A DNA stretch of 64,000 nt. It comes from Gammaproteobacteria bacterium. GTDB lineage: Bacteria > Pseudomonadota > Gammaproteobacteria > S012-40. The notes beneath the pieces were generated by a model. The model saw only the letters and a list, made by a program, of their open reading frames with translations, did not search any database and was not told the DNA's origin. Numbering within the stretch: the first letter of the stretch is position 1; each line of letters opens with the position of its first letter. The stretch lies in assembly GCA_029881255.1 (NCBI GenBank), contig JAOUMY010000013.1, forward strand, positions 1-64,000. The letters run 5' to 3'. The position numbers were made by a program, and so were the translations under genes. Positions 22,585 through 50,840 of the stretch are shown here, piece by piece.

Positions 22585-23709
22585 ATGATCCGAGCCGCCA
22601 GTATCTTGGTCCTATCTAGTCTGTCTTTCATTGCATGTTCGCCCCCGAAGGAAACATCTTTCGATCGAATCGGCAATAGTATCGCCTATCCAGAAGTTTC
22701 TGTCGGTGAACCCATGAGCGTACAGGAATATTCCAATCGTCGAATTATAGGCGGTCGCTTTACGAATTCAGACGGCAGCAGCTTGCTAACCCGAGAGGTT
22801 TCCTACCTGAATGGTGAAATAGACAGCTATTACAACATCGAATATAACGGAAACCAAAAACTACGCAGCACCCGTTTTAGCGCACCCGGCGCAGATGCAA
22901 ACTGGTTAACGCCCGACGATGTCGTCCTGCTATACACCGATTACGCACCAACAGACAATACTATTGCGTACATTATTTATGACGGCAGAGGCGCCGATGG
23001 CACCTGGTTCACCGCTGACGATAAAGTTCGCTATTATGAACGCCAGCAAACGGATGCCAGTAACGGCGAGATGCTCCATATTGCCGTGTCACTTGCCGGA
23101 GACGATGGCACATGGTTTACCAACGATGACCAGATCGGCTGGATCACACGATACGGCGCGATAGTTCAGGATCAACAACAGGTCGCAACTTATCTTACTC
23201 CCGGCGCAGATAACGATTGGTTCACGTTCGAAGACAATTCTGTTTATCAGCACTGGTTGAATATTTACGACGCTGCCGGAAATCTTGTCCGTTATATTCT
23301 ATATGCCGATACCGGTATTGACGGCATACCATTTACTACTGATGACACGATAGTCTATTACCATGACCTGAGTTACGACGCTACAGGACGAATTGAAACC
23401 GTTATCATGCATCATGGCGGTCCAGGCCCTGATGCCACGTGGTTTACCCCAGACGATAATATCCATTCCTGCAAACAACTCACGCGTGATGCAAACGACT
23501 TACCGATACGTACCACGACCTATCGTACCGGCCCCGATTTGAGCTGTTTTACTCCCGACGATATAGTCTGGGGCTATCACGACGATGTCTTCGACGCCAA
23601 CAATCTGCTTGTCAGAAGCAACGCATATTACGGCACGGGCCCCGATTTATTATGGTTCACGCAGGACGACTTGATCGTCAGTCAGCGCGAGTATATTCCA
23701 CAACAATGA
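22585..23709 (+). CDS. Repeat lipoprotein with WFTxDD motifs and YD-like repeats
   Basis: A 374-residue predicted lipoprotein (signal MIRAASILVLSSLSFIAC, Cys18). The mature part is made of about eight units, each with GxDxxWFTxDD (GADGTWFTADD, GDDGTWFTNDD, GPDATWFTPDD, GPDLLWFTQDD and so on) spaced by about 35-45 residues. Between them lie YD-like beta-strand pairs such as IYDAAGNLVRYILYADTG. The Asp/Gly clusters could bind calcium, but this is not shown. It follows the histidine kinase by 55 bases and probably shares its transcript. Function unknown. Confidence 0.75.
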   Translation: MIRAASILVLSSLSFIACSPPKETSFDRIGNSIAYPEVSVGEPMSVQEYSNRRIIGGRFTNSDGSSLLTREVSYLNGEIDSYYNIEYNGNQKLRSTRFSAPGADANWLTPDDVVLLYTDYAPTDNTIAYIIYDGRGADGTWFTADDKVRYYERQQTDASNGEMLHIAVSLAGDDGTWFTNDDQIGWITRYGAIVQDQQQVATYLTPGADNDWFTFEDNSVYQHWLNIYDAAGNLVRYILYADTGIDGIPFTTDDTIVYYHDLSYDATGRIETVIMHHGGPGPDATWFTPDDNIHSCKQLTRDANDLPIRTTTYRTGPDLSCFTPDDIVWGYHDDVFDANNLLVRSNAYYGTGPDLLWFTQDDLIVSQREYIPQQ

Positions 23710-23912: not shown

Positions 23913-26900
23913 TTACATATTTCCCTGTATAAACCCGCGCTGAAGAATCGCCCCTGCAGGTACAGGTAGCGGATTACTTGCCTGGAACCAGGTCGTCGTT
24001 GAATGGCATTGGTCACAGCCTGTTGTCACGCCAACAGCGGAGTGGTTTGCCGGTGTAGTGTGACAACTCTCACACGGACCGATAACATCATTATGATCGA
24101 CACCGAACGGAACCCAGGAAGTGGTGAGATGACATGCACCACAATTTCCAGTTGATGAAATATGCGTGGGGTGTTTTCCGATAGCCACGTTTCCATTATG
24201 GCACGCGTCACAATTACCGATAACCTGATTGTGATCCACAACAATCAACGGAACCCATCGCGTTGTGTAGTGACAAGCATCGCAGGCATCCGTAGTAGTG
24301 ATATGACCTGGATCCTTCCCAGGCGCGGTAACGCCGTTATGACAGTTACCACACGACCCAATTACATGAGCGTGGTCAACGCGTATAGCCGGCGTCCAAG
24401 CATTTGTCGAGTGGCATGCATCGCAGGCCTCACTACTACTGATGTGTCTTGATGATTTGCCTTTAGCCGTTGTGCCATTGTGGCAATCGAAACACTGACC
24501 AATAACTGAAACGTGATCAACAGTTATTACTGGGGTCCAGTATGACGTCGTATGACAATCATCACACGCGTCTGAACTCAAAATGTGGTCAGGGGTTTTA
24601 CCAGGTACCAGTTGATTATTGTGACACTCAATGCACTGACCAATAACGAACGCATGATCGACAATAATATAGGGCTTCCATGCCGTGGTTGAGTGGCAGG
24701 CCCCGCAGTCATTACTGCTGTTGATGTGTCCCTGATTTTTACCAGGAGCAGCAATACCGTTGTGGCAAGTGTCACATGTGCCGACAACTTCATTGTGATC
24801 TACCGTACTCGCTGGAACCCATATTGATGTCGAGTGACAAGCCGAGCATACATCAGTCGTCGGAATATGCGCATCATGCTTTCCAATTGCAACAATTCCA
24901 TTGTGACAGGCAATACAATCACCAATGACTTGCGAATGATCAACAACTATATATGGCACCCATTGTTCGGTCGAATGACACGCATCACAGACGTCGCTAC
25001 TGGTAATATGCGTATCATTCTTCGGTGTGGCAAAGGTGCCGTCATGGCAGTTCGCGCATGCCCCTAATACATCCGCATGATCCACTTTTGTTACCGGCGT
25101 CCACACATTCGGCACATGGCATGAACCACAATTGTTCGTTGTAGGAACATGTTTCGCTGATTTACCTGGCGCTAATACCGAATTGTGACAGCTAGCGCAT
25201 TCACCGAGCACAAAGTCATGGTCCACAGTAACGACAGGCATCCAACGCGTGGTGTTATGGCAGGCACCACAGTCATCCGTCGTATTAATATGCTGCGGTG
25301 ATTTATCAGGCGCCAGAATGCCATTATGACAATCGCTACAAACGCCTAACACTTCGGCGTGATCAACAAGCGCCACTGGCGACCAGACCTGCGTCGTGTG
25401 ACAAGCGCCACACAACTCAGTGGTATTGATATGTCCGTCCGACTTACCTTTCGCCTTGGTCCCGTTGTGACAATTTGCACCACAGTTTTCTTTACCGATG
25501 ACTTCATTGTGATCAACCGATATATAGGGAACCCAGGCAATAGTCGAATGACAGGCGCCACAGGCATCGCTGGAATTAATATGTTCCGCGTGCTTGTCTG
25601 GCGCTGCGGTTCCATTATGGCAACTTTCACAAATCCCCAGGACTTCGTTGTGGTCTACACGAATCGCAGGTTTGAAAGTTGCTGTCGAGTGACAGGTGTC
25701 GCAGGCGTCTGTTGTAGAGATATGTCCAGCGTTCTTTCCTGGCGCAGGCCCGCCATTGTGGCAGGATACGCAAACACCTTTGACTTGGGTGTGATCCACC
25801 GTTATAGCAGGCTTCCATTGCAGCGTGGAATGACAAAGGTCACATGCTTCAGACGAGTCAATATGTGCCTGGTTTTTATACGGCGCAGTAGTCCCGTCAT
25901 GGCAAGAGGTACAAATGCCAATAACTTCTTTGTGATCAACAATAGTGGTCGGACTCCAACCCGCTGGCGTATGACATGCCTCACAGACTTCTGTCGTATT
26001 TATGTGTCCGTTCGACTTAGGCGTAGCACTGATACCGTTGTGGCATCCGAAACACGGTCCTCTGACAAAATCGTGATTGACGACAACGATATCGGCCCAG
26101 GTAAATGGGGCGGTATTGTGGCACTCCTTACAATCATTAGTCGTAGGAATATGCAGGCCACTCTTTCCTACCGTTGTCGTGCCATTGTGGCAGTCGCTAC
26201 ACGCACCAACGACTTCCGCATGATCAACTGCCGACGCGGGCTTCCAGCTTGTGGTGAAATGGCAGACCTCACACAGATTGGTTACCGGTATATGGTAACT
26301 GGGCTTTCCCGCCACCAGACCATTGTCATGACAACTAACGCAGGCGGCAGTGATTTGTGTGTGATCTACGGCGGCAACAGATGTCCAGGCGGTAGTCACA
26401 TGACACGCATCGCAGGCCTCACTCGATGTAATGTGTGCAGCATTTTTTCCAGTCGCGATGGTTCCGTTATGACAGTCCTGGCAAATACCTAGCACTTCAT
26501 TGTGATCAACTTTTCTGACTGCATTCCAACGTAGCGTCGTGTGACAAGTACCGCACATGTCTGTGGTATTTATGTGGCCATTATTCTTACCCATCGAGAT
26601 CGTGCCGTCATGACAGGAAAAACAATCTCCAATAACCTGAGTGTGATCGACACGTTTTGCCGGTTTCCATGATGCGACTGAGTGGCACATGTCGCATCCA
26701 TCACTACTGGCAATATGGCTTTCATTCTTTCCTGTTGCCGTTACGCCATCATGGCACGCGATACACAAACCTGCGACCTGGGTATGATCCACTTTCAGAG
26801 CAGGCTTCCATCTCGATGTTGTATGACAAGCCTGACAAACATCTGAGGACTGAATATGCCCCGTATTCTTGCCGAGCGCACCGGTATGACATCCAACGCA

Positions 26901-28835
26901 TTCGCCCAGCACGTGTTGATGATCCACGCTCTTGGCTGGCACCCACATCGCTGTGGTATGACAAACCTCGCAGACATCCGTCGTTGGAATATGAGTTAGC
27001 GATTTACCGGTTGCCTCTCTACCGTTGTGACAGGAGAAACAGTTATCCGATATTCCGGTATGTATTTGACCTATTGTGACACCTTGCCAGCGTCGGGTGT
27101 TATGGCAAACATCACATTCGGCAAGTGTTGGAATATGCGTCCCCGGCTTACCACTGGCGATACGATTGTTATGACAACTGCTGCAAACACCAAATACTTC
27201 CTGGTGGTCAACAGTAATTGCCGGTTGCCATACCGTTGTCGTATGACAGGCTTCGCAAGAATCTGAGGAAAATATATGCGTCCGAGATTTTCCTGTTGCT
27301 ACGACACCTTGATGACATCCACTACAAGCGCCTTGAACTTCATTATGATCGACAGATTCGACTAAACGCCAGATCGTCGTATTGTGACAGGCACCACATA
27401 CATCGCTGGTGGGAATATGGGTTGCGTGTTTGCCTGTTGCCAACACCCCGTCATGACAGGATTCGCACGTACCTCTAACTTGCAGATGATCCACTTTCAC
27501 GCCTGCACGCCATGAATTGGTGGAGTGACAAGCAGAACAACTATCGGTACTTGTTATATGAGTGAGATTTTTTCCGCTTGCAAGCACACCATCGTGACAA
27601 TTCACGCAGCGACCATTTACCTGCAGGTGATCCACTTGCAATACTGGCTTAAAGGTCAATTCGGAGTGACACGCTTTGCAATTATCCGAGGTGGGAATAT
27701 GCGTCGTGGGCTTTCCAAGACTGACCTGATTGTTATGACAGTCAACGCAAACTCCCAGCACCTGAGTATGATCGACGCGTATAACAGGACGCCAGGTCGC
27801 CTGCGAGTGACAGGCATAGCAATTTTCAGTCGTCGGTATATGCGCAGTAGGCTGTCCAACTGCAGCAATCATATTGTGACAGGAATTACACGCACCACTC
27901 ACTTCATTGTGATCAAAAAACAGAATTGGCTTCCAGGTAATGACACTGTGACATGCCTCGCAGCGATTCGAGCTTTGAACATGAGTCAAAGGCTTACCTT
28001 GAGCATCGACGCCGTGACAATTTCCGCATCCGTCAACAAAGGTATTATGGTCGACCGGCAAATGGTTAAGGCGTCCGCTAAGTCGCGGCTTGGCAAGATG
28101 CCCTGGTTTCACATCGAACCATGTACCTGTGTTATGACAGCTATCACACGCTTCACTGGTGCGAAAGTGATCTGCAGTCTGACCCACCGCCACAATTGAG
28201 TTATGACAGTCTTCACAACGCCCAAATACTTCCTGGTGATCCACGCGCATGGCCGGCACCCATGCACTCACAGCATGGCAGCTATCGCAATTATTGCTCG
28301 ATAAAAGATGCGTTTTTGGTTTAAACGAGCCTGCCGGACCTGTATGACATGAAAGGCAATCACCTATCGTCTGCGCATGATCAAAACGGACAATTTCAGT
28401 CCAGTTGCGACTCACATGACACGATTCACAATCGTCACTAACAGCGAGATGTCCTGTCGATTTACCCGTGGCGATCTGGCTGTTATGACAATCCACACAT
28501 GCGCCTTTCAGCTGCCCGTGCTCAAGAAACGCAGGTAGCCAATTCGTGCTCATATGACAAGTCTGGCACTCCCCGCTACTGGCGATGTGCGTTTTCGAGC
28601 GCTCACCTACATATTTTTCGGAGTGACATAATTGGCAAGGAATGCGATTGCGGACAACCTCATGAGACATGGATACAGCTGCGCCATCGAATCCATCAAT
28701 ATGACAGGCGTTGCATTTAGCACCAGCGATTGGCACATGGTTGAGGGGAATATCGATAGCTTTCGCTTGCGCGATACTGAAGAAACAAAAGACAAGAAAA
28801 ATAAGAACAAGGAAAAGCCCGTCGTTGTTTTTCAT
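23913..28835 (-). CDS. Giant multiheme c-type cytochrome (67 heme-binding motifs)
   Basis: A 1640-residue secreted protein. The signal peptide is MKNNDGLFLVLIFLVFCFFS, cut near AQAKA; the ATG at 28835 is chosen because it starts the signal, while in-frame starts up to 28910 would add a charged leader. By manual count there are 66 CXXCH motifs and one CX3CH (CGANCH, residue 1118). Most of the protein is a tandem repeat of about 47 residues with two motifs and two further His (VDH and HI). This pattern predicts bis-His ligated c-hemes in a long chain, acting in electron transfer at or beyond the outer membrane. No porin, CymA or other electron partner is adjacent. Confidence 0.93.
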   Translation of the reverse strand: MKNNDGLFLVLIFLVFCFFSIAQAKAIDIPLNHVPIAGAKCNACHIDGFDGAAVSMSHEVVRNRIPCQLCHSEKYVGERSKTHIASSGECQTCHMSTNWLPAFLEHGQLKGACVDCHNSQIATGKSTGHLAVSDDCESCHVSRNWTEIVRFDHAQTIGDCLSCHTGPAGSFKPKTHLLSSNNCDSCHAVSAWVPAMRVDHQEVFGRCEDCHNSIVAVGQTADHFRTSEACDSCHNTGTWFDVKPGHLAKPRLSGRLNHLPVDHNTFVDGCGNCHGVDAQGKPLTHVQSSNRCEACHSVITWKPILFFDHNEVSGACNSCHNMIAAVGQPTAHIPTTENCYACHSQATWRPVIRVDHTQVLGVCVDCHNNQVSLGKPTTHIPTSDNCKACHSELTFKPVLQVDHLQVNGRCVNCHDGVLASGKNLTHITSTDSCSACHSTNSWRAGVKVDHLQVRGTCESCHDGVLATGKHATHIPTSDVCGACHNTTIWRLVESVDHNEVQGACSGCHQGVVATGKSRTHIFSSDSCEACHTTTVWQPAITVDHQEVFGVCSSCHNNRIASGKPGTHIPTLAECDVCHNTRRWQGVTIGQIHTGISDNCFSCHNGREATGKSLTHIPTTDVCEVCHTTAMWVPAKSVDHQHVLGECVGCHTGALGKNTGHIQSSDVCQACHTTSRWKPALKVDHTQVAGLCIACHDGVTATGKNESHIASSDGCDMCHSVASWKPAKRVDHTQVIGDCFSCHDGTISMGKNNGHINTTDMCGTCHTTLRWNAVRKVDHNEVLGICQDCHNGTIATGKNAAHITSSEACDACHVTTAWTSVAAVDHTQITAACVSCHDNGLVAGKPSYHIPVTNLCEVCHFTTSWKPASAVDHAEVVGACSDCHNGTTTVGKSGLHIPTTNDCKECHNTAPFTWADIVVVNHDFVRGPCFGCHNGISATPKSNGHINTTEVCEACHTPAGWSPTTIVDHKEVIGICTSCHDGTTAPYKNQAHIDSSEACDLCHSTLQWKPAITVDHTQVKGVCVSCHNGGPAPGKNAGHISTTDACDTCHSTATFKPAIRVDHNEVLGICESCHNGTAAPDKHAEHINSSDACGACHSTIAWVPYISVDHNEVIGKENCGANCHNGTKAKGKSDGHINTTELCGACHTTQVWSPVALVDHAEVLGVCSDCHNGILAPDKSPQHINTTDDCGACHNTTRWMPVVTVDHDFVLGECASCHNSVLAPGKSAKHVPTTNNCGSCHVPNVWTPVTKVDHADVLGACANCHDGTFATPKNDTHITSSDVCDACHSTEQWVPYIVVDHSQVIGDCIACHNGIVAIGKHDAHIPTTDVCSACHSTSIWVPASTVDHNEVVGTCDTCHNGIAAPGKNQGHINSSNDCGACHSTTAWKPYIIVDHAFVIGQCIECHNNQLVPGKTPDHILSSDACDDCHTTSYWTPVITVDHVSVIGQCFDCHNGTTAKGKSSRHISSSEACDACHSTNAWTPAIRVDHAHVIGSCGNCHNGVTAPGKDPGHITTTDACDACHYTTRWVPLIVVDHNQVIGNCDACHNGNVAIGKHPTHISSTGNCGACHLTTSWVPFGVDHNDVIGPCESCHTTPANHSAVGVTTGCDQCHSTTTWFQASNPLPVPAGAILQRGFIQGNM
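24003..28715 (-). repeat. About 33 tandem copies of a 141-bp (47-residue) two-heme unit
   Basis: From the first to the last heme motif the protein repeats CxxCH-NGxxAxGKxxxHIxTxxx (23 residues) and CxxCH-xTxxWxPxxxVDHxxVxGx (24 residues). Copies diverge at the DNA level, so this is an old internal amplification. Irregular units occur near the N-terminus (an insert before the tenth motif), around motifs 23-24 (VDH replaced by QIH), at motif 26 (short), at motif 46 (CX3CH) and at the C-terminal end. Confidence 0.9.
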
Positions 28836-29338
28836 CAACGAGCGATTTGAATCAAGCAGTCCATTATTTGTAGTTCTTTCGCGCCCCATGCCCCACACCA
28901 CGGTAAACAATACTGTTACCGATTTATTCGGAGAACCAGGATAAACCTGATCAACACGCAGACATGAGAGGTCTTACTAGAACCACAACAATATGAAATT
29001 CTCTAAGTAATCATTGTTTTCAGTTATTGTTGGTGATCACTCAAATACCTAGACGACAAGAACCAATCTCCAATTTGGGCAAACCTCTCCCACGTGCACC
29101 CGATACATTGCTGCTTTTCCAGTGGTTTAGCACCATCTGGAAATATTCTTATTATTCGAAAGCTTATTTTCAGTTTATTGTATGATTTATTACTGAAAGT
29201 ATAGGTGAGGGAAAGAAAAACTTAGTGAAATAGTCGAACAAAAAAGATTCCGTTGCCTTGAATTTCAAGGAATCGGAATGTCGCGTCAAATAATTGACCA
29301 AATAAAGATGAAATACGGTATTTATGCGCTTCAGAACA
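28836..29338. other. Non-coding region upstream of the giant cytochrome
   Basis: About 500 AT-rich bases between sohB (ends 29339) and the cytochrome start. It should contain the cytochrome promoter on the minus strand. I looked for FNR/CRP-type palindromes and found only half-sites (for example TTGATCAGG near 28947 on the minus strand), which I do not call. No small gene with a ribosome-binding site is evident. Confidence 0.5.
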
Positions 29339-30364
29339 CTACAACAACTCTCTTTCGCGGTGTCGAGTCGACCAGGACAACAGTAATTTGTCGGCCACCC
29401 CTTGGGCAAATCCGGCAATCCGGGATGATAAAGGCTTCTTACTCTTGTGCGTGATCTGATACAGGTCGTGATCCTGGTATTTCGAGAGCAGATAATCATC
29501 GCTGGTCTGAATCTCATCCACCAGTTTCAAATCCAGCGCGCGTCGCCCAAACCAGTGCTCACCTGTTGCGACTTGCGCGATATCGACAACCTCACGATGT
29601 TCTTTTACAAATGTTTTGAACAACTCGTGGGTATCATCAATATCTTCCTTGAACTTAGCTCGCGCTTTATCCGTATTTTCCCCAAATACCGTAAGTGTAC
29701 GCTTGTATTCCCCACCGGTGATTAACTCGAAATCCACGTCGTGCTTTTTCAAAAGTCGATGAAAATTGGGAAGCTGAGCCACCACACCGATAGAACCAAC
29801 TATAGCGAATGGTGCGGCAATGATGCGATCAGCAATACAAGCCATCATATAGCCACCGCTTGCGGCAACCTTATCTACAGATACCGTCAGGAATATCTTG
29901 GCATGACGTAATCGTTGCAACTGAGACGCGGCCAGACCATAGCCATGTACCATGCCACCCGCGCTTTCGAGTTTGACAAACACTTCATCGCCATCTTCCG
30001 CGATCATCAAAACGGCGCTAACTTCCTCGCGTAAGTGAGACACCGCACTCGCCTTTACATCTCCATGGAAATCGAGCACGAATACTCGCGGTCGTTTTTC
30101 CCGGTTTCCCTTTTTCTCCTTTTTGTCCTTTTGCTTCTGTTCTTTTTGCAGCTGCTTAGCTTGCTGCTTATTTGCCATGAATTGCTTGAGGACACTTTTC
30201 GTATCTTCATACGCTTCGTTTAAACGACGAATTTCAATATGAGCATCCCGCTCATCGCGGTTTCGACTCGCCATGGATATAACCAGTATCAATCCTATGA
30301 CTAGTGACAGGACGATAGTCAACGTTTTGGCGGTAAAAAGGCCGTATTCATATAAAAATTCCAC
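29339..30364 (-). CDS. sohB: Inner-membrane S49 protease SohB
   Basis: A 341-residue signal-peptide-peptidase A family protease. An N-terminal membrane anchor (TLTIVLSLVIGLILVISM) is followed by a Lys/Gln-rich linker and the S49 domain. The nucleophile Ser is in KVAASGGYMMAC, and the Lys general base is in TGGEYKRTLTVFG. IVGSIGVVAQLPNFHRLL is also conserved. It is longer at the linker than many homologues, otherwise normal. It is monocistronic, with the cytochrome start about 500 bases downstream on the same strand. Confidence 0.93.
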   Translation of the reverse strand: MEFLYEYGLFTAKTLTIVLSLVIGLILVISMASRNRDERDAHIEIRRLNEAYEDTKSVLKQFMANKQQAKQLQKEQKQKDKKEKKGNREKRPRVFVLDFHGDVKASAVSHLREEVSAVLMIAEDGDEVFVKLESAGGMVHGYGLAASQLQRLRHAKIFLTVSVDKVAASGGYMMACIADRIIAAPFAIVGSIGVVAQLPNFHRLLKKHDVDFELITGGEYKRTLTVFGENTDKARAKFKEDIDDTHELFKTFVKEHREVVDIAQVATGEHWFGRRALDLKLVDEIQTSDDYLLSKYQDHDLYQITHKSKKPLSSRIAGFAQGVADKLLLSWSTRHRERELL

Positions 30365-42863: not shown

Positions 42864-45800
42864 CTAGTAAGTAACTGTCACCGTCCTCGTCGCGGGACTT
42901 GAATCAACAGCCCCTCTGGAATCGGTCACCGTTAGCGTTATCGTGTAGACACCGGGAACATCAAACCGACCCCAACCCGGCGTCGCCCATGTGTTATTGA
43001 TTGATGTACTCACACCACCTTGAAAATCCCATTGATAAGTCAACGCATCTTGATCAGCGTCGTAGCCGCTACCATCAAAATACAACCAACTTCCCGCGCG
43101 TATTGTTGCATCAGCAGTAGGCGAGATTATCGTACCGTTAGGTGGGGTATTCGTGGTTGATCCAATAACCGTGATAACACGCTCGGCGTAGGTTTGAGAA
43201 ATCAAACCAAGCGCATCGACGGCCCAAACGCGGATATTGAATGTCCCCGCTTGATTGAATTGCACATTACCCGGAGTGGCACCCATCGCATTCGGCGCAA
43301 CTCCAGCCATGCTCCAGTGGTATGTGAGTGGATAATGTCCGTCGATATCTGCACCCGTAGCGCTGAAGTAGACGTAATCACCCACGTTAATTGTCCGATT
43401 TGTTAACGGTTGACTAATCGACACTGTTGGCGCCTGATTTGTTGTTGCACTGCCCACAACTGTAATCAAGCGTTCTGCAGGAACAGGATCAGAAATACCA
43501 GTCGCATCGGTAACTACCAGACGCACCCGATACGTACCTACTTGATTAAAACTGATCTGACCTGGATTTTGCGCGAGTATATCTGGAACAGCACCATCGA
43601 AACTCCAACGATAGCTCAATGGATAATTGCCATCGGGATCAACACCGGATGCCGTGAAGTTAACGCGATCACCAACAGTAATCGTCAAATCTCCAGTGGG
43701 CGTATTGATAATACCATTCGGTGGCACGGATACAGGCACATTCGCCACTACGGTTATCGTGCGTGTTGCTGGCGTCGGATCGCTCGCCCCAAGATTGTCG
43801 GTTACACTCAACTGTATGTTGTATGTACCCGCTGTTGTAAACAAGACCTCACCTGGGTTTTGCAATGCACTGCCAGCGCGTGCACCATTGAAATTCCACG
43901 AGTAAACATATGGCGTATTACCTTCGGGGTCTGTCGCGTACGAGGCAAAATACACGCGATCACCCTCGTATATCGTCATATCGCTGGCCGGTGAAAGAAT
44001 GACTGCGTTAGGTGGACTATTCGCAGGTTGAAAATCGCGAACCGTAATCACTCTTGTTGCGGGAGAAGCATCACTCAGACCTAGTGCATCGCTCACGGTA
44101 AATGTTACATGAAACACACCTGGTGTCGTAAATTGCACCACACCTGGATTCTGCTGTACCGAAGACGACGCCCCTCCATCAAACGTCCAGAGATAAGTCA
44201 GTGGCGTATTGTTGTCCGGATCAAATCCGTATCCGGAAAAATTCAACCAATCACCAGCATTAATTGTTACATCGCCTATCGGTGTCGATATCACACTGTT
44301 AGGTGGAACATTAATAACCGCAGGATAGTTGACGGTAACAACAACTTGTTCCGGTGTCGCATCGGACAGTCCATGCACATCAGTCGTTATCAAGCGAATG
44401 GTGAAAACCCCCGGACTCTGGAAGCTGATATTTCCTGGTACACGGGTAGTCGTGTTTGGTGCAACCCCGTTCATATCCCAGAAATATGTGACTGCATCTC
44501 CATCAGGGTCTGTAGCGCTGCCACTAAAGTACACAGTGTCGCCAACATCTATCGTAATGTTTCCTGTTGGCTGGTCAATCGACCCGACAGGCGGACGATT
44601 CACCGGCACACCCTCGACAGTTACCAATCGCGTCGCCGGTTGCGGATCGGCGAGTCCTAACGAATCTGTTACAACCAGATTCACTTCGTACACGCCTGCG
44701 CTTGGAAAAGTGATCAAGCCAGGGTTTTGCACATGTGCATTCGGCGCGCCTCCACCGAAATTCCAGTGATAGGCAAGCGGTGTATTGCCGTCGGGATCAA
44801 TACCAAGCGCACTAAAGTTTACACTTTGTCCTTCGGTGATAACGACATCGGATACGGGTGAAGTAATCGTTCCATTTGGTGGAAGATTTTGCGCAATTCC
44901 CAGGACCGACACCGTAATCATGGCCGGTGTTGGATCGCTTGCACCACGAGCATCGGTAGCGGTCATGGTGATGTTATACGTACCTGCCTGTGAAAATGTT
45001 GCACTATGGCTTCGCGTCGTTCTGTTCGGAACTGAACCATCCATATTCCAGTAATAGGTGACCGCATCACCCTCAGCATCTGTAGCACTCGCACTAAACG
45101 ATAAAGTATCGCCGACATATATCGCCATATTACCTGTCGGTTGCGTGATACGCCCGTTGGGTGGAGTGTTAACTGGTACGCTTTCGACAGTAACCATTCT
45201 TAGCGCCGGTGTTGGGTCGGCCAGACCTCGTGCATCAGTTACCAACAGACTAATGTGATAAACGCCCGGCGTATTGAATACTACGTCACCCGGATTCTGA
45301 ATATTGAAATTCGGCCGACTACCATCCATGTTCCAAAGGTAACTGATGGCGTCACCATCTGGGTCAACACCAGAAGCCGTTAATCGAACAATGCCGCCTG
45401 CGGAGATAACCACATCTTGCGCAGGTGATAGGATAATTCCATTGGGTGGAGTGTTCGTAGCAACCGGGTTTACCGTAATTGTTCTACTCGCTGGTGTTGG
45501 ATCGACATTGCCGTAAATGTCACGAACGCTTAGCGTTACTGTGTATGTACCTGCTTGATTGAATCGAATATTTCCAGGTGTTTGCGAATTGTTTACTGCG
45601 GCAACATTTGAGAAATCCCATTGGTATGTGACGGGATCATTTTCAGGGTCACTTGCAGTTCCAGAAAAGAAAACTGTTTCACCTGCGTTAATAGCAAGAT
45701 TGGTCGATGGTTGCAAAATCGTCCCATTGGGTGGGCTATTACTCACAACAACAGCTCCACTACAATTAGCAGGAGCGCCTGCAACAACCAGGGAGAATTC

Positions 45801-46193
45801 CAGTGATCGACTTTTCGCGCGAACTTTACATGGAACGTCAGTGTTTTGATTGATTGTTTTCGACAAACGCCACTGCATGCGTGAATCGACTACCGCTGTT
45901 CCGACATACAGGCCGGAATCTGCATTTAGGACGTCTACGCTTGCATCACCAGCGTTTGCATTTCCACTAACAATGAGACGACTTCTGTCTGCTCGCCATT
46001 GCGCACGTGTAACAAAATTGGTCGTCAATACAGCGGCTCGAACGACATCTACCTGTTCTTCACCAGATTCGCCAGATAGAAGCTCACCGTCATTTCCTGG
46101 CGGCTTCGCGCAGGCTGACAAAAGTAATAGTAGAAAAATAGAGAACGTAAGAAATATATTGCGTTGGTAATTCTGAGAGTAAGTAGTTTTCAT
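42864..46193 (-). CDS. Giant PKD-repeat lipoprotein 1
   Basis: A 1109-residue predicted lipoprotein (signal NIFLTFSIFLLLLLSAC, Cys28). Residues about 57-146 form a module with two Cys (VPCKV, ANCSGA) that is also found twice in the next gene. About ten PKD-type Ig-like repeats follow, each starting PPNGxIxxP and containing ASDPExD-, YxWxFxG- and GTYxIxLxVTDxxGxxDPTPAxR-type motifs. GGAGG precedes the ATG. The PKD repeats suggest an extended surface stalk or adhesin; function unproven. A paralogue lies directly upstream. Confidence 0.85.
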   Translation of the reverse strand: MKTTYSQNYQRNIFLTFSIFLLLLLSACAKPPGNDGELLSGESGEEQVDVVRAAVLTTNFVTRAQWRADRSRLIVSGNANAGDASVDVLNADSGLYVGTAVVDSRMQWRLSKTINQNTDVPCKVRAKSRSLEFSLVVAGAPANCSGAVVVSNSPPNGTILQPSTNLAINAGETVFFSGTASDPENDPVTYQWDFSNVAAVNNSQTPGNIRFNQAGTYTVTLSVRDIYGNVDPTPASRTITVNPVATNTPPNGIILSPAQDVVISAGGIVRLTASGVDPDGDAISYLWNMDGSRPNFNIQNPGDVVFNTPGVYHISLLVTDARGLADPTPALRMVTVESVPVNTPPNGRITQPTGNMAIYVGDTLSFSASATDAEGDAVTYYWNMDGSVPNRTTRSHSATFSQAGTYNITMTATDARGASDPTPAMITVSVLGIAQNLPPNGTITSPVSDVVITEGQSVNFSALGIDPDGNTPLAYHWNFGGGAPNAHVQNPGLITFPSAGVYEVNLVVTDSLGLADPQPATRLVTVEGVPVNRPPVGSIDQPTGNITIDVGDTVYFSGSATDPDGDAVTYFWDMNGVAPNTTTRVPGNISFQSPGVFTIRLITTDVHGLSDATPEQVVVTVNYPAVINVPPNSVISTPIGDVTINAGDWLNFSGYGFDPDNNTPLTYLWTFDGGASSSVQQNPGVVQFTTPGVFHVTFTVSDALGLSDASPATRVITVRDFQPANSPPNAVILSPASDMTIYEGDRVYFASYATDPEGNTPYVYSWNFNGARAGSALQNPGEVLFTTAGTYNIQLSVTDNLGASDPTPATRTITVVANVPVSVPPNGIINTPTGDLTITVGDRVNFTASGVDPDGNYPLSYRWSFDGAVPDILAQNPGQISFNQVGTYRVRLVVTDATGISDPVPAERLITVVGSATTNQAPTVSISQPLTNRTINVGDYVYFSATGADIDGHYPLTYHWSMAGVAPNAMGATPGNVQFNQAGTFNIRVWAVDALGLISQTYAERVITVIGSTTNTPPNGTIISPTADATIRAGSWLYFDGSGYDADQDALTYQWDFQGGVSTSINNTWATPGWGRFDVPGVYTITLTVTDSRGAVDSSPATRTVTVTY

Positions 46194-46502: not shown

Positions 46503-49500
46503 TTATGGCAACACGGTTATCACACGAATCGAAGGCGTAGGATCAGACACGCCAGATGCATTGCGTACTGTAAGCTTAACGACATATACACCGGATTGTG
46601 TGAATGTCATATTGCCTGCGTTTTGTGAATTTGGTTGAACACCTGTTGCAGGTAGACTTCCAAAATCCCAGGTATAAAGCAGTCCCGCAGCGGATGCACC
46701 TGAAGGATCGTATCCTTCCGCAGTGAAGTTAACACTTTCATTGCGACGAATCGTCATATCACTCAATGGCGAGGTGATATTGCCATTCGGTGCTAAACCA
46801 AAACCGCTACCTGCTCCTGCACCACCAGTACCAGGCGTGCCAACACCACCACCTATCGGCTGTCCGGTACAGGCACTGCTATTGATCACAGTAAAGGTAC
46901 GACGATCAGGCGTGGCGTTACCCGCTCCTGTAGTCGGATCGTTTGCACTCAATGTCACTTCGTAACTACCCGCCTGATAGAAAATCATCGAGGTTGTTAT
47001 TCCAGAGCGGAAGGCAAGCGCCTGGCCATTCTGGTAGAAGGTCCACTGATAGTTAATCGCGGTACTGATGTTAGAGGCCTCAAAGTTCACATTCGCACCA
47101 CAAGCAAACGTGCTGTTGTTTTGTGGTGACTGAATCACTGCATTGAGGAAACCACCAACAGAGCCGCCCGCACCAGGAAAACCCGGTATACCTGTGCCAA
47201 ATGGCGTACCACCATTTGCAACAACTGAGATAGTGCGAGTAGCAGACTGACTAACTGCACCAGTTGTTACGTCAACATATCTCAGTGTTACGTTGTAGTT
47301 GCCCACTCGGTTAAACGTTACACGACCTGGACCTTGCGCCTGAACAACACTGCCGAACTGATTAGAGAAGGTTAGTGATGCAACCGCTCCATCAAAATTC
47401 CAGCGTTGAGCATAGCCACCACCAACATTCGATGCAGCGAAATCAATACTGCTGCCAACATTGATAGTCATATTGTTCTGCGCAGGCAGAGTTATGACCG
47501 GCGTTACACTCAGAGGAATACTACCGCCACAGCTAAAACCTGCACTACAAACATTAACCGTTTGCGTCGCCTTACCAAAGCGACCTTGCGCATCGGTGTA
47601 ATATAGGGCCACGTTGTAACTTCCTGCGCGCTTAAACGTTACGCTTGGAGAAGCTACTGTCGTATCAGGTGCGCCACCATCAAAGCTCCAGTAGTAGTCT
47701 GTGATCACACCGCCAGTTGTATTGAGCACCTGGAAGTTCACAGGAACTTCGACCATAGCAGAACCAGAAATGACTGAGATGGTTGCGCCTAACGCTGGTG
47801 TTGGATCAATAACTTTTACAATACGAGTCACTGTATCGCTAGAGATACCATCACTCACCGTCAAGCGAACAGGGAATTCCCCAACTGTTGAGAAATAGAC
47901 CAAGCCCGCATACGCAGTATTGTAATTCACTTGCGTAGAACCCGTCAGGAATCCGAAATCCCAGTTGTAAGACATTGCTGCCGGAGCAGAATCAGGGTCA
48001 TAGACAGAGCCCATGAAGTTGATACTGTCACCGCGACGAATCACTACGTCGGTTGCAGGAGAAACAATCGATGCAATTGGTGGTTGAGTCAGATTGTTAC
48101 CGACTACCGTTACCACACGTACATCTGGGGTCATGTCTCTTGCGCCAGCGTTATCAACTGCCGTCAAGCGTATACGGAAGGTTCCGGTACGGTTGAAGGT
48201 GATTGGCGGAGTAACCTGACCGGTGGTATTTTCTTCAACCCCATCGAAGTTCCAGTTAAACGTTACCTGACCACCTTCTGGATCAGATCCCAGTGCAGAG
48301 AAACTCAGGCTCTGACCGACACTGATAGTCATGTTGACGTTTGGATCAATGATCGAACCATTTGGCGGCTGATTAAATCCAGTAGTCACACCTTGTACAG
48401 TTACCTTAACAACTTCTGGCGTTGGATCGCTCGCGCCTTGCGAATCGGTCGCAGTGAAACGTATGCGATAAGTACCAGGTTGGTTGAAGATGATATCACC
48501 AGGATTTTGCGCGCGAATATCCGGCATCGCGCCATCCATTTCCCAACGATACAACAACTGTGTATCACCATCTGGATCTGTTGCTGTACCCGCAAAACTG
48601 ACTGACTGCCCAAGAGCGATCTGAATTTCGTTAGACGCAGGAGCAACTATTCTGCTCACTGGCGGACGATTATTCACACCGATCGAAGTATTCGCACCAA
48701 CAGTGATGATACGACGCTCAGGCGTCAGATCAGACTGGCCTAGTGCATTAGTTACCGTCATGGTGACGATGTAAACACCAGGAGTATTGAACGTCAGCGC
48801 GCCTGGGTTTTGTACTGTCGTAGCCGGACGTGCACCACCGAAGTCCCAACGATAGCTCAATGGGTTGCTATTGTTTGGATCATAGCCAGATGCTGCGAAT
48901 GTTACTGAAGCACCTGTTGGAATCGACACATCCGAAGCTGGTTGACTGATAAACCCAGACGGACCTTGTCCTCCTTGTCCAGGGAAGTTATTACCTGAAC
49001 CCAGAACAGTAACTGTACGATACGCTGGAGTTGGATCTGTCAAACCGCGCGAGTCAGCAACCACCATACTCACGAGATAAGTACCAGGAATCGCAAAGAT
49101 TACTGGACCAGGAGCCGGACCAGTCATGTTCGGTGCCGCACCGCCAAAATCCCAGTAGAAAGTCAGCGGCAAATTGCCATCAGCGTCAAATCCTTCGGCA
49201 AAGAAAGAAATCGACTGACCTGCATTTACGGTCAGATTCTGCTGTTGTGCAGGCTGTACGATGTATCCTTCTGGAGGATTAAAGCCGCCACCGTTTGGCA
49301 GACCAGGAACTGGAAAACCACTGGTGTCTTGCACAATAACCAAACGCGTTGCAGGTGTTGGATCCGACAAGCCGTTAGCGTCGGTTGCAGTCAGGGTGAC
49401 ATAGTAAATCCCTGGATTGCTAAACAACACATTGACCGATGCACCGCTACGATCTTGCATGAATGCGGTACCGGTAAATGACCAACGATAACTCAATTGA

Positions 49501-50453
49501 CCTACACCATCTGGATCAAAACCGCTACCGACAAAGTTAATTGTTGTACCAACAGGAATTGTCAGGTCCGCAAGCGGTGCCTGAATTACACTTTCCGGAG
49601 CCAGACCAAAAAACTGTGGTGGCGCATTAGGAGTCGTCGGTGGAACACCTCCAGGAAAACTTCCAATTGGAGAGAATGGAATTCCACCAATTGTGCCGGA
49701 GCAAGTAGACGGCGAATTTGAAACCACCGCTTGAGCGATTAAACCGTTAGACGAAACACTGACAGCACATGGAATTGGAAACACATTGCGAACGCGCACT
49801 CTCCAGGAACCAACGGAATTGGCCTGATCACTACCGAGATATTGACCGGACACGGAGTCGAATACGTTTACGACTTGGTTTGGAATCGCGCCGCTACCCT
49901 TTACAGTTAGGCGAGCAGAAGAATTCTTCCACTCTGCTTCTGAGACAACAATGCTGCCAAGAGGCGCTACCGAAGCACCCGCACAACTCAGTGGCGCATT
50001 TTGTACCGGAATATTCTGCACGCCGCGTCGTGTCGTAACACTGATGGAACAAGGAACGGCGGCCAAATTATTGAGACGCAATACCCAGTTATCATCGTCA
50101 TCACTATTTAGTGCGCGATTGAGATTGATGTTTTGATTATTGGGAATCAGGATCTGGCGGGTAAATGCGTTCAATACGGTGATTTGATTGTCATCATCGT
50201 CCAGTTCACCAAACCCACTGACAACCAATACTCCGTTGTTTTGATCCCAGAATGCGGAACGCACGATATCGTTCTGAAAGTTACGCCGAGACTCGCGGCG
50301 AATTTCGCCGGCTAGCGCGATATCCATATTTTCTGCACCGTCCAGCCCACCTTCCGGTAACTGACCGATACACCCCGTCATGAATAACAATACCGTTAGT
50401 GATAATGCATTCAATCCCAGGCTTTTACGCGCGGTTTGAATTATGCGTTTCAT
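46503..50453 (-). CDS. Giant PKD-repeat lipoprotein 2
   Basis: A 1316-residue predicted lipoprotein. The ATG at 50453 gives a lipoprotein signal (Cys28, TVLLFMTGC) and has AGGGGG upstream; an in-frame start at 50588 would bury the signal. Residues about 66-158 and 173-252 are two copies of the module seen once in the neighbouring gene, each ending PC...CSG or CAG. About ten PKD-like repeats follow, with Gly/Pro-rich linkers (such as GQGGQGPSG). It is clearly a paralogue of the adjacent gene, with its own terminator. Function unproven. Confidence 0.85.
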   Translation of the reverse strand: MKRIIQTARKSLGLNALSLTVLLFMTGCIGQLPEGGLDGAENMDIALAGEIRRESRRNFQNDIVRSAFWDQNNGVLVVSGFGELDDDDNQITVLNAFTRQILIPNNQNINLNRALNSDDDDNWVLRLNNLAAVPCSISVTTRRGVQNIPVQNAPLSCAGASVAPLGSIVVSEAEWKNSSARLTVKGSGAIPNQVVNVFDSVSGQYLGSDQANSVGSWRVRVRNVFPIPCAVSVSSNGLIAQAVVSNSPSTCSGTIGGIPFSPIGSFPGGVPPTTPNAPPQFFGLAPESVIQAPLADLTIPVGTTINFVGSGFDPDGVGQLSYRWSFTGTAFMQDRSGASVNVLFSNPGIYYVTLTATDANGLSDPTPATRLVIVQDTSGFPVPGLPNGGGFNPPEGYIVQPAQQQNLTVNAGQSISFFAEGFDADGNLPLTFYWDFGGAAPNMTGPAPGPVIFAIPGTYLVSMVVADSRGLTDPTPAYRTVTVLGSGNNFPGQGGQGPSGFISQPASDVSIPTGASVTFAASGYDPNNSNPLSYRWDFGGARPATTVQNPGALTFNTPGVYIVTMTVTNALGQSDLTPERRIITVGANTSIGVNNRPPVSRIVAPASNEIQIALGQSVSFAGTATDPDGDTQLLYRWEMDGAMPDIRAQNPGDIIFNQPGTYRIRFTATDSQGASDPTPEVVKVTVQGVTTGFNQPPNGSIIDPNVNMTISVGQSLSFSALGSDPEGGQVTFNWNFDGVEENTTGQVTPPITFNRTGTFRIRLTAVDNAGARDMTPDVRVVTVVGNNLTQPPIASIVSPATDVVIRRGDSINFMGSVYDPDSAPAAMSYNWDFGFLTGSTQVNYNTAYAGLVYFSTVGEFPVRLTVSDGISSDTVTRIVKVIDPTPALGATISVISGSAMVEVPVNFQVLNTTGGVITDYYWSFDGGAPDTTVASPSVTFKRAGSYNVALYYTDAQGRFGKATQTVNVCSAGFSCGGSIPLSVTPVITLPAQNNMTINVGSSIDFAASNVGGGYAQRWNFDGAVASLTFSNQFGSVVQAQGPGRVTFNRVGNYNVTLRYVDVTTGAVSQSATRTISVVANGGTPFGTGIPGFPGAGGSVGGFLNAVIQSPQNNSTFACGANVNFEASNISTAINYQWTFYQNGQALAFRSGITTSMIFYQAGSYEVTLSANDPTTGAGNATPDRRTFTVINSSACTGQPIGGGVGTPGTGGAGAGSGFGLAPNGNITSPLSDMTIRRNESVNFTAEGYDPSGASAAGLLYTWDFGSLPATGVQPNSQNAGNMTFTQSGVYVVKLTVRNASGVSDPTPSIRVITVLP

Positions 50454-50840
50454 TTGACCCCCTTTTACCGGCTCCCTCATATGAGACGATTGCGCCGAAA
50501 CTACACTGATTAAAAACAATTGCGGCAAAACGAGGGGGGAGAAAGCCTGTCTATCCCTTGAGGCTGGCGGAACATTACCAACTCGCAATAAGAAAGCTGG
50601 CTGTTCAGCTAGAAGTTTGGTGATACACCCGGTTTCAAAAACTGAAACCGCCCTTCCCCCAAATATTTTGCGTAAATTATTGTCGTCGTTCGATTTGTAA
50701 ATATTGCCGTACGACGTTTATCCGCTTATTGCAAAATTCCCCATATCGAACTCATGGTTAGCGTCTCACAATAAGGGGGGTAGCTTAAGGCATACTGAAA
50801 AACTGACTATACTTCCGGGATATAGACGTGATGAGGCGAG

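Follow-up and report, generated by a model that had tools for sequence, protein, structure and literature searches.

Among the systems described so far, the closest to the protein reported here is the PCC3 gene cluster (He et al. 2017, PMC5566968), in which the large extracellular cytochrome has a median of 34 hemes and the other cytochrome 21, with 22-39 residues per heme (median 26). Genome listings of bacterial PCC3-type giants go back to 2017; the heme number is 63 in Amphritea and reaches 85 in the alphaproteobacterium Agromonas (PMC5566968). For PCC3 cytochromes, published AlphaFold models are described as long and mostly linear, and the cluster is discussed for iron oxidation (PMC10734462); its function is still called unverified or untested (PMC12442390). 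Other giants are an 86-heme cytochrome of Desulfuromonas acetexigens, which is described as not in a complex and is expressed under EET conditions (PMC12133095), and the 69- and 113-heme cytochromes of Methanoperedenaceae, which were assigned to extracellular electron transfer (PMC7082337, PMC7327174). A long extracellular heme chain is also formed by the OmcS nanowires of Geobacter, with a rise of 48 Å per six-heme subunit (PMC6584659).

The locus compared with these systems lies in a stretch of 64,000 nucleotides (the window; contig JAOUMY010000013.1, positions 1 to 64,000) from a Gammaproteobacteria bacterium. The features referred to below are as follows.

23913..28835, minus strand: coding sequence of a 67-heme giant c-type cytochrome, 1640 aa (open frame, motif count and PF14522).
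24003..28715, minus strand: array of 67 heme motifs (residues 41-1611), mostly in 47-aa di-heme repeats (motif spacing, His positions and repeat consensus).
25467..25484, minus strand: motif 46, CGANCH (CX3CH), at the same position in the orthologue of genome G006 (motif listing).
28029..28133, minus strand: irregular spacer between motifs 9 and 10, 40 residues against the usual 23/24 (spacings).
28764..28835, minus strand: putative Sec signal peptide, residues 1-24, MKNNDGLFLVLIFLVFCFFSIAQA (judged by eye on the translation).
23916..24002, minus strand: C-terminal tail beyond the last heme, STTTWFQASNPLPVPAGAILQRGFIQGNM (sequence comparison).
29339..30364, minus strand: sohB-like S49 peptidase, a conserved neighbour and the synteny anchor with G006 (PF08496/PF01343; tblastn).

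An exact recount of the translation agrees with the first-pass annotation, which had counted 66 CXXCH motifs and one CX3CH, 67 heme-attachment motifs in total, in 1640 residues. The coordinates given there also hold; on the minus strand, the frame starts with an ATG at 28835 and runs without interruption until its stop codon at 23913. Upstream, it extends to a TTG at 28910, and the hydrophobic N-terminus begins at the ATG. Each of the remaining five frames of this segment holds 0 or 1 heme motif, and a chance origin of the 67 motifs is therefore excluded. Nearly all Cys residues of the cytochrome (134 of 135) are located inside motifs, and the remaining one, C17, falls in the putative signal peptide. 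Judged by eye, the N-terminus, for which a signal peptide had been claimed, is Sec-like, with a putative cleavage site between MKNNDGLFLVLIFLVFCFFSIAQA and KA; the expected holo mass of the protein cleaved at A24 is near 213 kDa. The cytochrome has neither a surface anchor nor a PKD domain or lipobox, and promoter and terminator scans remained at chance level. Convergent with the cytochrome gene, at 22585-23709 on the plus strand of the window, is a putative lipoprotein gene with GADGTWFTxDDxI-like repeats and no Pfam match.

The spacing of the heme motifs, 23/24 residues, is almost strict and gives a 47-aa di-heme repeat with the consensus CdACHsTxxWkPaixVDHxqViGxCxsCHNGxxApGKnxtHIpsSDa, so that the heme density is 24.5 aa per heme. 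Each repeat carries two His residues that are candidates for distal ligands, one in xHI and one in VDH. In fact, all 67 motifs have a His at -7 to -9 from the first Cys, mostly at -7, and consequently all hemes could be bis-His, each having a candidate distal ligand besides the proximal one. The spacer between motifs 9 and 10 is also long in both orthologues described below (46 and 37 residues), and the PLP-type C-terminal tail is common to both orthologues and to the giants on contigs C2, C1 and C10 of the same genome. Among the giants, two types of C-terminus were observed, one being a PLP or Pro/Gly-rich tail that often ends in HM, GM or GH, and the other a heme ending of the form DCAGCHA...DCSG.CH (loci compared: L066, L069, L078, L105, L111, L112 and L113 versus L070, L079 and L080); these two types may reflect different docking or export.

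The search for homologues with similar repeat numbers, which had been proposed as a check, returned 67 motifs in two other genomes. The G006 orthologue, from another genus of the same family, is syntenic and 51% identical and has 66 CXXCH motifs and one CX3CH, the latter with the same motif number (46) as in the window. G003, from a third genus, encodes a homologue with 67 CXXCH, whose neighbours are not shared. In the three-way alignment of these proteins, 66 of the 67 motifs are equal in rank, the first motif alone differing, and the ligand positions are 98.7% identical compared to 38.4% for the other positions. This implies that the motif number has been held while most other residues changed. 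Similarly, a register test gave zero offset as the best only for the G006 and G003 orthologues, and the other giants showed no clear preferred register. Based on these translated sequences, the predicted heme number of 67 is conserved across three genera.

The synteny with G006 was established by tblastn of the L075 neighbours. In G006, a block with rlmN, pilF, rodZ, hisS, yfgM, bamB and der (names assigned by similarity and gene order) is followed by sohB, and the cytochrome gene sits downstream of sohB. The same genes occur in the same order in the window, where approximately 20 kb of extra genes separate der from sohB. Part of these 20 kb, which are missing from the syntenic G006 locus, are two adjacent genes for large PKD-repeat-like lipoproteins at 42864-46193 and 46503-50588 (minus strand), between der and the cytochrome.

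An assembly error or frameshift that inflated the repeat number had been named as one finding that would overturn the claim. The longest exact direct DNA repeat within the cytochrome gene is 17 nt, and since there are no long exact repeats, the array offers an assembler no target for collapse or expansion. The 47-aa repeats are at most 66% identical in nucleotide sequence for every pair, and adjacent repeats are barely more similar than distant ones (50% and 47% protein identity); the array is without trace of recent duplication. Together with the equal count in two independent genomes, these results led to the rejection of an assembly, frameshift or slippage artefact, whose probability is negligible.

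Concerning the family of the protein, Pfam assigned PF14522 (Cytochrome_C7) in 34 stretches with an E value of 2.8e-80, as well as Cytochrom_c3_2 and Paired_CXXCH_1. When the family profile was compared with solved structures, MtrC (E 1e-8) and chain 6r2q_A (3.6e-6) were matched; the latter, named otherwise in the table of matches, is presumably MtrA of the MtrCAB complex. The DmsE model of NCBIfam (TIGR03508, cut-off 192.2 bits) gave 223.8 bits for the whole protein, a score summed over the repeats, and no single stretch of the cytochrome reaches the cut-off; membership in the DmsE/MtrA decahemes was rejected on this ground and on that of 67 hemes instead of 10. The similarity to these decahemes, for which a wire-like function is likewise proposed, arises via repeated c7-like units; whereas their 10 hemes lie inside an MtrB barrel, no MtrB/PioB was found in the genome of the window. 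The OmcA/MtrC family (TIGR03507) was rejected at 14.9 bits against a cut-off of 209.3, and the yardstick of about 10 hemes used in the first-pass annotation, which stems from MtrC and OmcA, is thus misplaced for a cytochrome that belongs elsewhere. On viral contigs, the peptide patterns used revealed no relative.

By tblastn, nearly full-length homology was found to giants at L050-L054 and other loci, encoded directly behind a 21-heme ORF. The named homologues come from metagenome-assembled Gammaproteobacteria, several called Woeseiaceae, in which giants of 7 to 43 hemes directly follow the 21-heme ORF. Near the homologues, the same genes recur, namely one for an inner-membrane protein in which HX13H occurs twice and SGXXG is present, that of the 21-heme cytochrome, those of one or two giants, and one for a TPR protein resembling an outer-membrane barrel. 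This conserved set is the PCC3 cluster described by He et al. (2017). A protein of 430-450 aa with 4Fe-4S and FAD/pyridine-nucleotide oxidoreductase domains (domains scanned in L070) also recurs near PCC3 clusters (L050:2277-3623, L070:13351-14667, L106:1259-2569, L108:4497-5810, L109:2704-3990 and L110:13907-15214), usually divergent from the inner-membrane gene, and may be an electron entry point.

The 67-motif protein shares with the PCC3 extracellular cytochromes (PMC5566968; Gallionellaceae, PMC10734462) the c7-type repeats as low-complexity units, the approximately 25 aa per heme, close to the published median and within the published range, the dozens of hemes and a full-length similarity to large cytochromes whose genes directly neighbour that of a 21-heme cytochrome. 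On the other hand, it differs from them in three respects. No porin, 21-heme periplasmic cytochrome or inner-membrane partner was found in the window by tblastn with the PCC3 partners of its own genome, whose matches lay solely in the cytochrome repeats, and a PCC3 cluster at this locus was rejected. The N-terminus is AIDIPLNHVPIAGAKCNACH, and the start FDHxxTxFxLxGxH, carried by most PCC3 large cytochromes read here (our own observation among cluster members and no published criterion), including those of both PCC3 clusters of the same genome, is absent. The heme number is fixed at 67 here and ranges from 7 to 70 among the cluster giants seen. Since homology to the PCC3 giants coexists with the lack of partner genes in the window, the protein is classified as an orphan, a predicted PCC3-type large cytochrome standing alone.

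The two PCC3 clusters of this genome are on contig C8 (L070; 21 + 64 hemes) and contig C10 (L069; 21 + 47 hemes); both include a porin-like TPR protein, and the inner-membrane protein of each bears two HX13H and SGXXG. In the loci read, the genome encodes 16 multiheme proteins with about 424 motifs. Among them are giants that belong to neither cluster (42, 27 and 26 hemes), a 32-heme protein whose N-terminal part resembles a lipoprotein, and several proteins of 10-14 hemes. A Ccm-type lyase component (CcmF/NrfE family, 768.7 bits) is present, which, alongside the 67 motifs and the putative signal peptide, is consistent with a c-type cytochrome. The genome also encodes the type II secretion secretin GspD (573.9 bits). 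Multiheme proteins of 10-32 motifs with long non-heme parts were seen at L067:9941-11716, L069:15386-17224, L071:6973-9813, L072, L073 and L074; in the L069 protein, which was scanned, PKD domains precede the heme part.

The view that multiheme cytochromes of this size are rare in Gammaproteobacteria is put too strongly, as strong matches (E<=1e-100) occur in 18 of the 369 sampled genomes of this class and at least six further giants are encoded in the genome from which the window comes. With 67 hemes, the protein lies within the published range (63, 69, 85, 86 and 113) and is no record. A larger ORF was observed in the related genome G112 (contig C131, L105:5984-15808, plus strand), where 3274 aa contain 129 CXXCH, all with an upstream His; the ORF has no Ns, its longest exact repeat is 33 nt, and it ends in a Pro/Gly-rich tail. 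The 113-heme protein was called the largest in 2020 (PMC7082337/PMC7327174), and a 2024 survey reported gene neighbourhoods with over a hundred motifs (PMC11475568); the G112 protein is likely, but not certainly, a single-protein record.

The 67 motifs, their regular spacing, the His residue for each heme and the full-length homology to PCC3 giants support an exported PCC3-like wire, and the cytochrome is probably a heme chain on one exported polypeptide and, as such, a paralogue of the PCC3 large extracellular cytochrome that stands by itself. Such a protein would be exported by Sec and have all 67 hemes loaded covalently by Ccm, and the hemes would be bis-His and low-spin throughout, making it a carrier and not an enzyme. 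By homology, it would be located outside the outer membrane, where electrons would be passed or stored between PCC3 conduits and extracellular minerals, partners or the biofilm matrix; the most likely role predicted is that of a wire or charge store outside the cell, to which PCC3 conduits would deliver electrons. If packed like OmcS, it would form an extended wire of approximately 50 nm; from the rise of 48 Å per six-heme subunit, 67 hemes would reach approximately 54 nm, a value by analogy and not a measurement. AlphaFold2 models of two segments, one of 18 hemes (19 alignment rows) and one of 10 hemes (22 rows), came out at pLDDT 59.3 and 56.2 (pTM 0.31), too low to be of use, and Foldseek of the 18-heme model gave no match. 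As for the electron conduit proposed in the first-pass annotation, a wire is compatible with the sequence, but a trans-envelope conduit finds no support at this locus, as no porin, 21-heme or inner-membrane partner is encoded nearby.

Several other readings should be weighed. The protein may be a spare extracellular PCC3 subunit that docks in trans on one of the two porins; by taking the place of the 64- or 47-heme subunit, it would change how far the conduit reaches. The two PCC3 clusters in the same genome and a C-terminal tail of the type seen in the 47-heme subunit of cluster C10 speak for this possibility, which is nevertheless doubtful, because the FDHxxTxFxLxGxH start, found in both clusters and perhaps the docking part, is absent. 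Another reading concerns the heme number, which, and hence the length of about 50 nm, could be kept constant by selection so that the chain bridges a defined distance, as a genetically measured nanowire, unlike polymeric nanowires, which have no set length, and unlike PCC3 giants, in which the heme number drifts; this is a rather unlikely, tentative idea.

An electron capacitor, periplasmic or on the surface, would instead mainly store charge, 67 electrons per chain, allowing respiration to go on once acceptors run out, with conduction over distance secondary. The high heme density and the lack of partner genes at the locus agree with storage, which has been suggested for PCC3 cytochromes (PMC10734462), but the same work predicts a linear array for them, and it is not obvious why storage would require heme number and order to stay the same across genera; this reading is unlikely. 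It is far less probable still that the protein is a heme or iron reserve, or has few hemes attached, and carries no electrons. Nothing among the window ORFs ties the cytochrome to respiration, yet the 98.7% conserved ligand positions include a distal His for every heme, a feature for which a simple reserve would have no use.

The solitary PCC3-like wire remains the favoured reading, and the type of protein is already known; it is not a new kind of system. Compared to the 86-heme protein of Desulfuromonas acetexigens, also a giant, it belongs to another phylum and has fewer hemes, and compared to the Methanoperedenaceae giants, of comparable or larger heme number, it is not archaeal; both likenesses are set by description. 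The likeness to OmcS is one of function by analogy, since OmcS is a polymer of six-heme subunits whereas here one polypeptide has its length set by the gene. An orphan giant with a conserved heme number was not found in the literature searched. In a genome of some 424 motifs in 16 multiheme proteins, such an orphan is a clean target, as its gene could be deleted without touching a porin complex. If fully loaded, it would rank with the longer heme arrays that bacteria are known to build on a single chain, and its conserved count raises the question of whether the length of such a wire is set by the cell.
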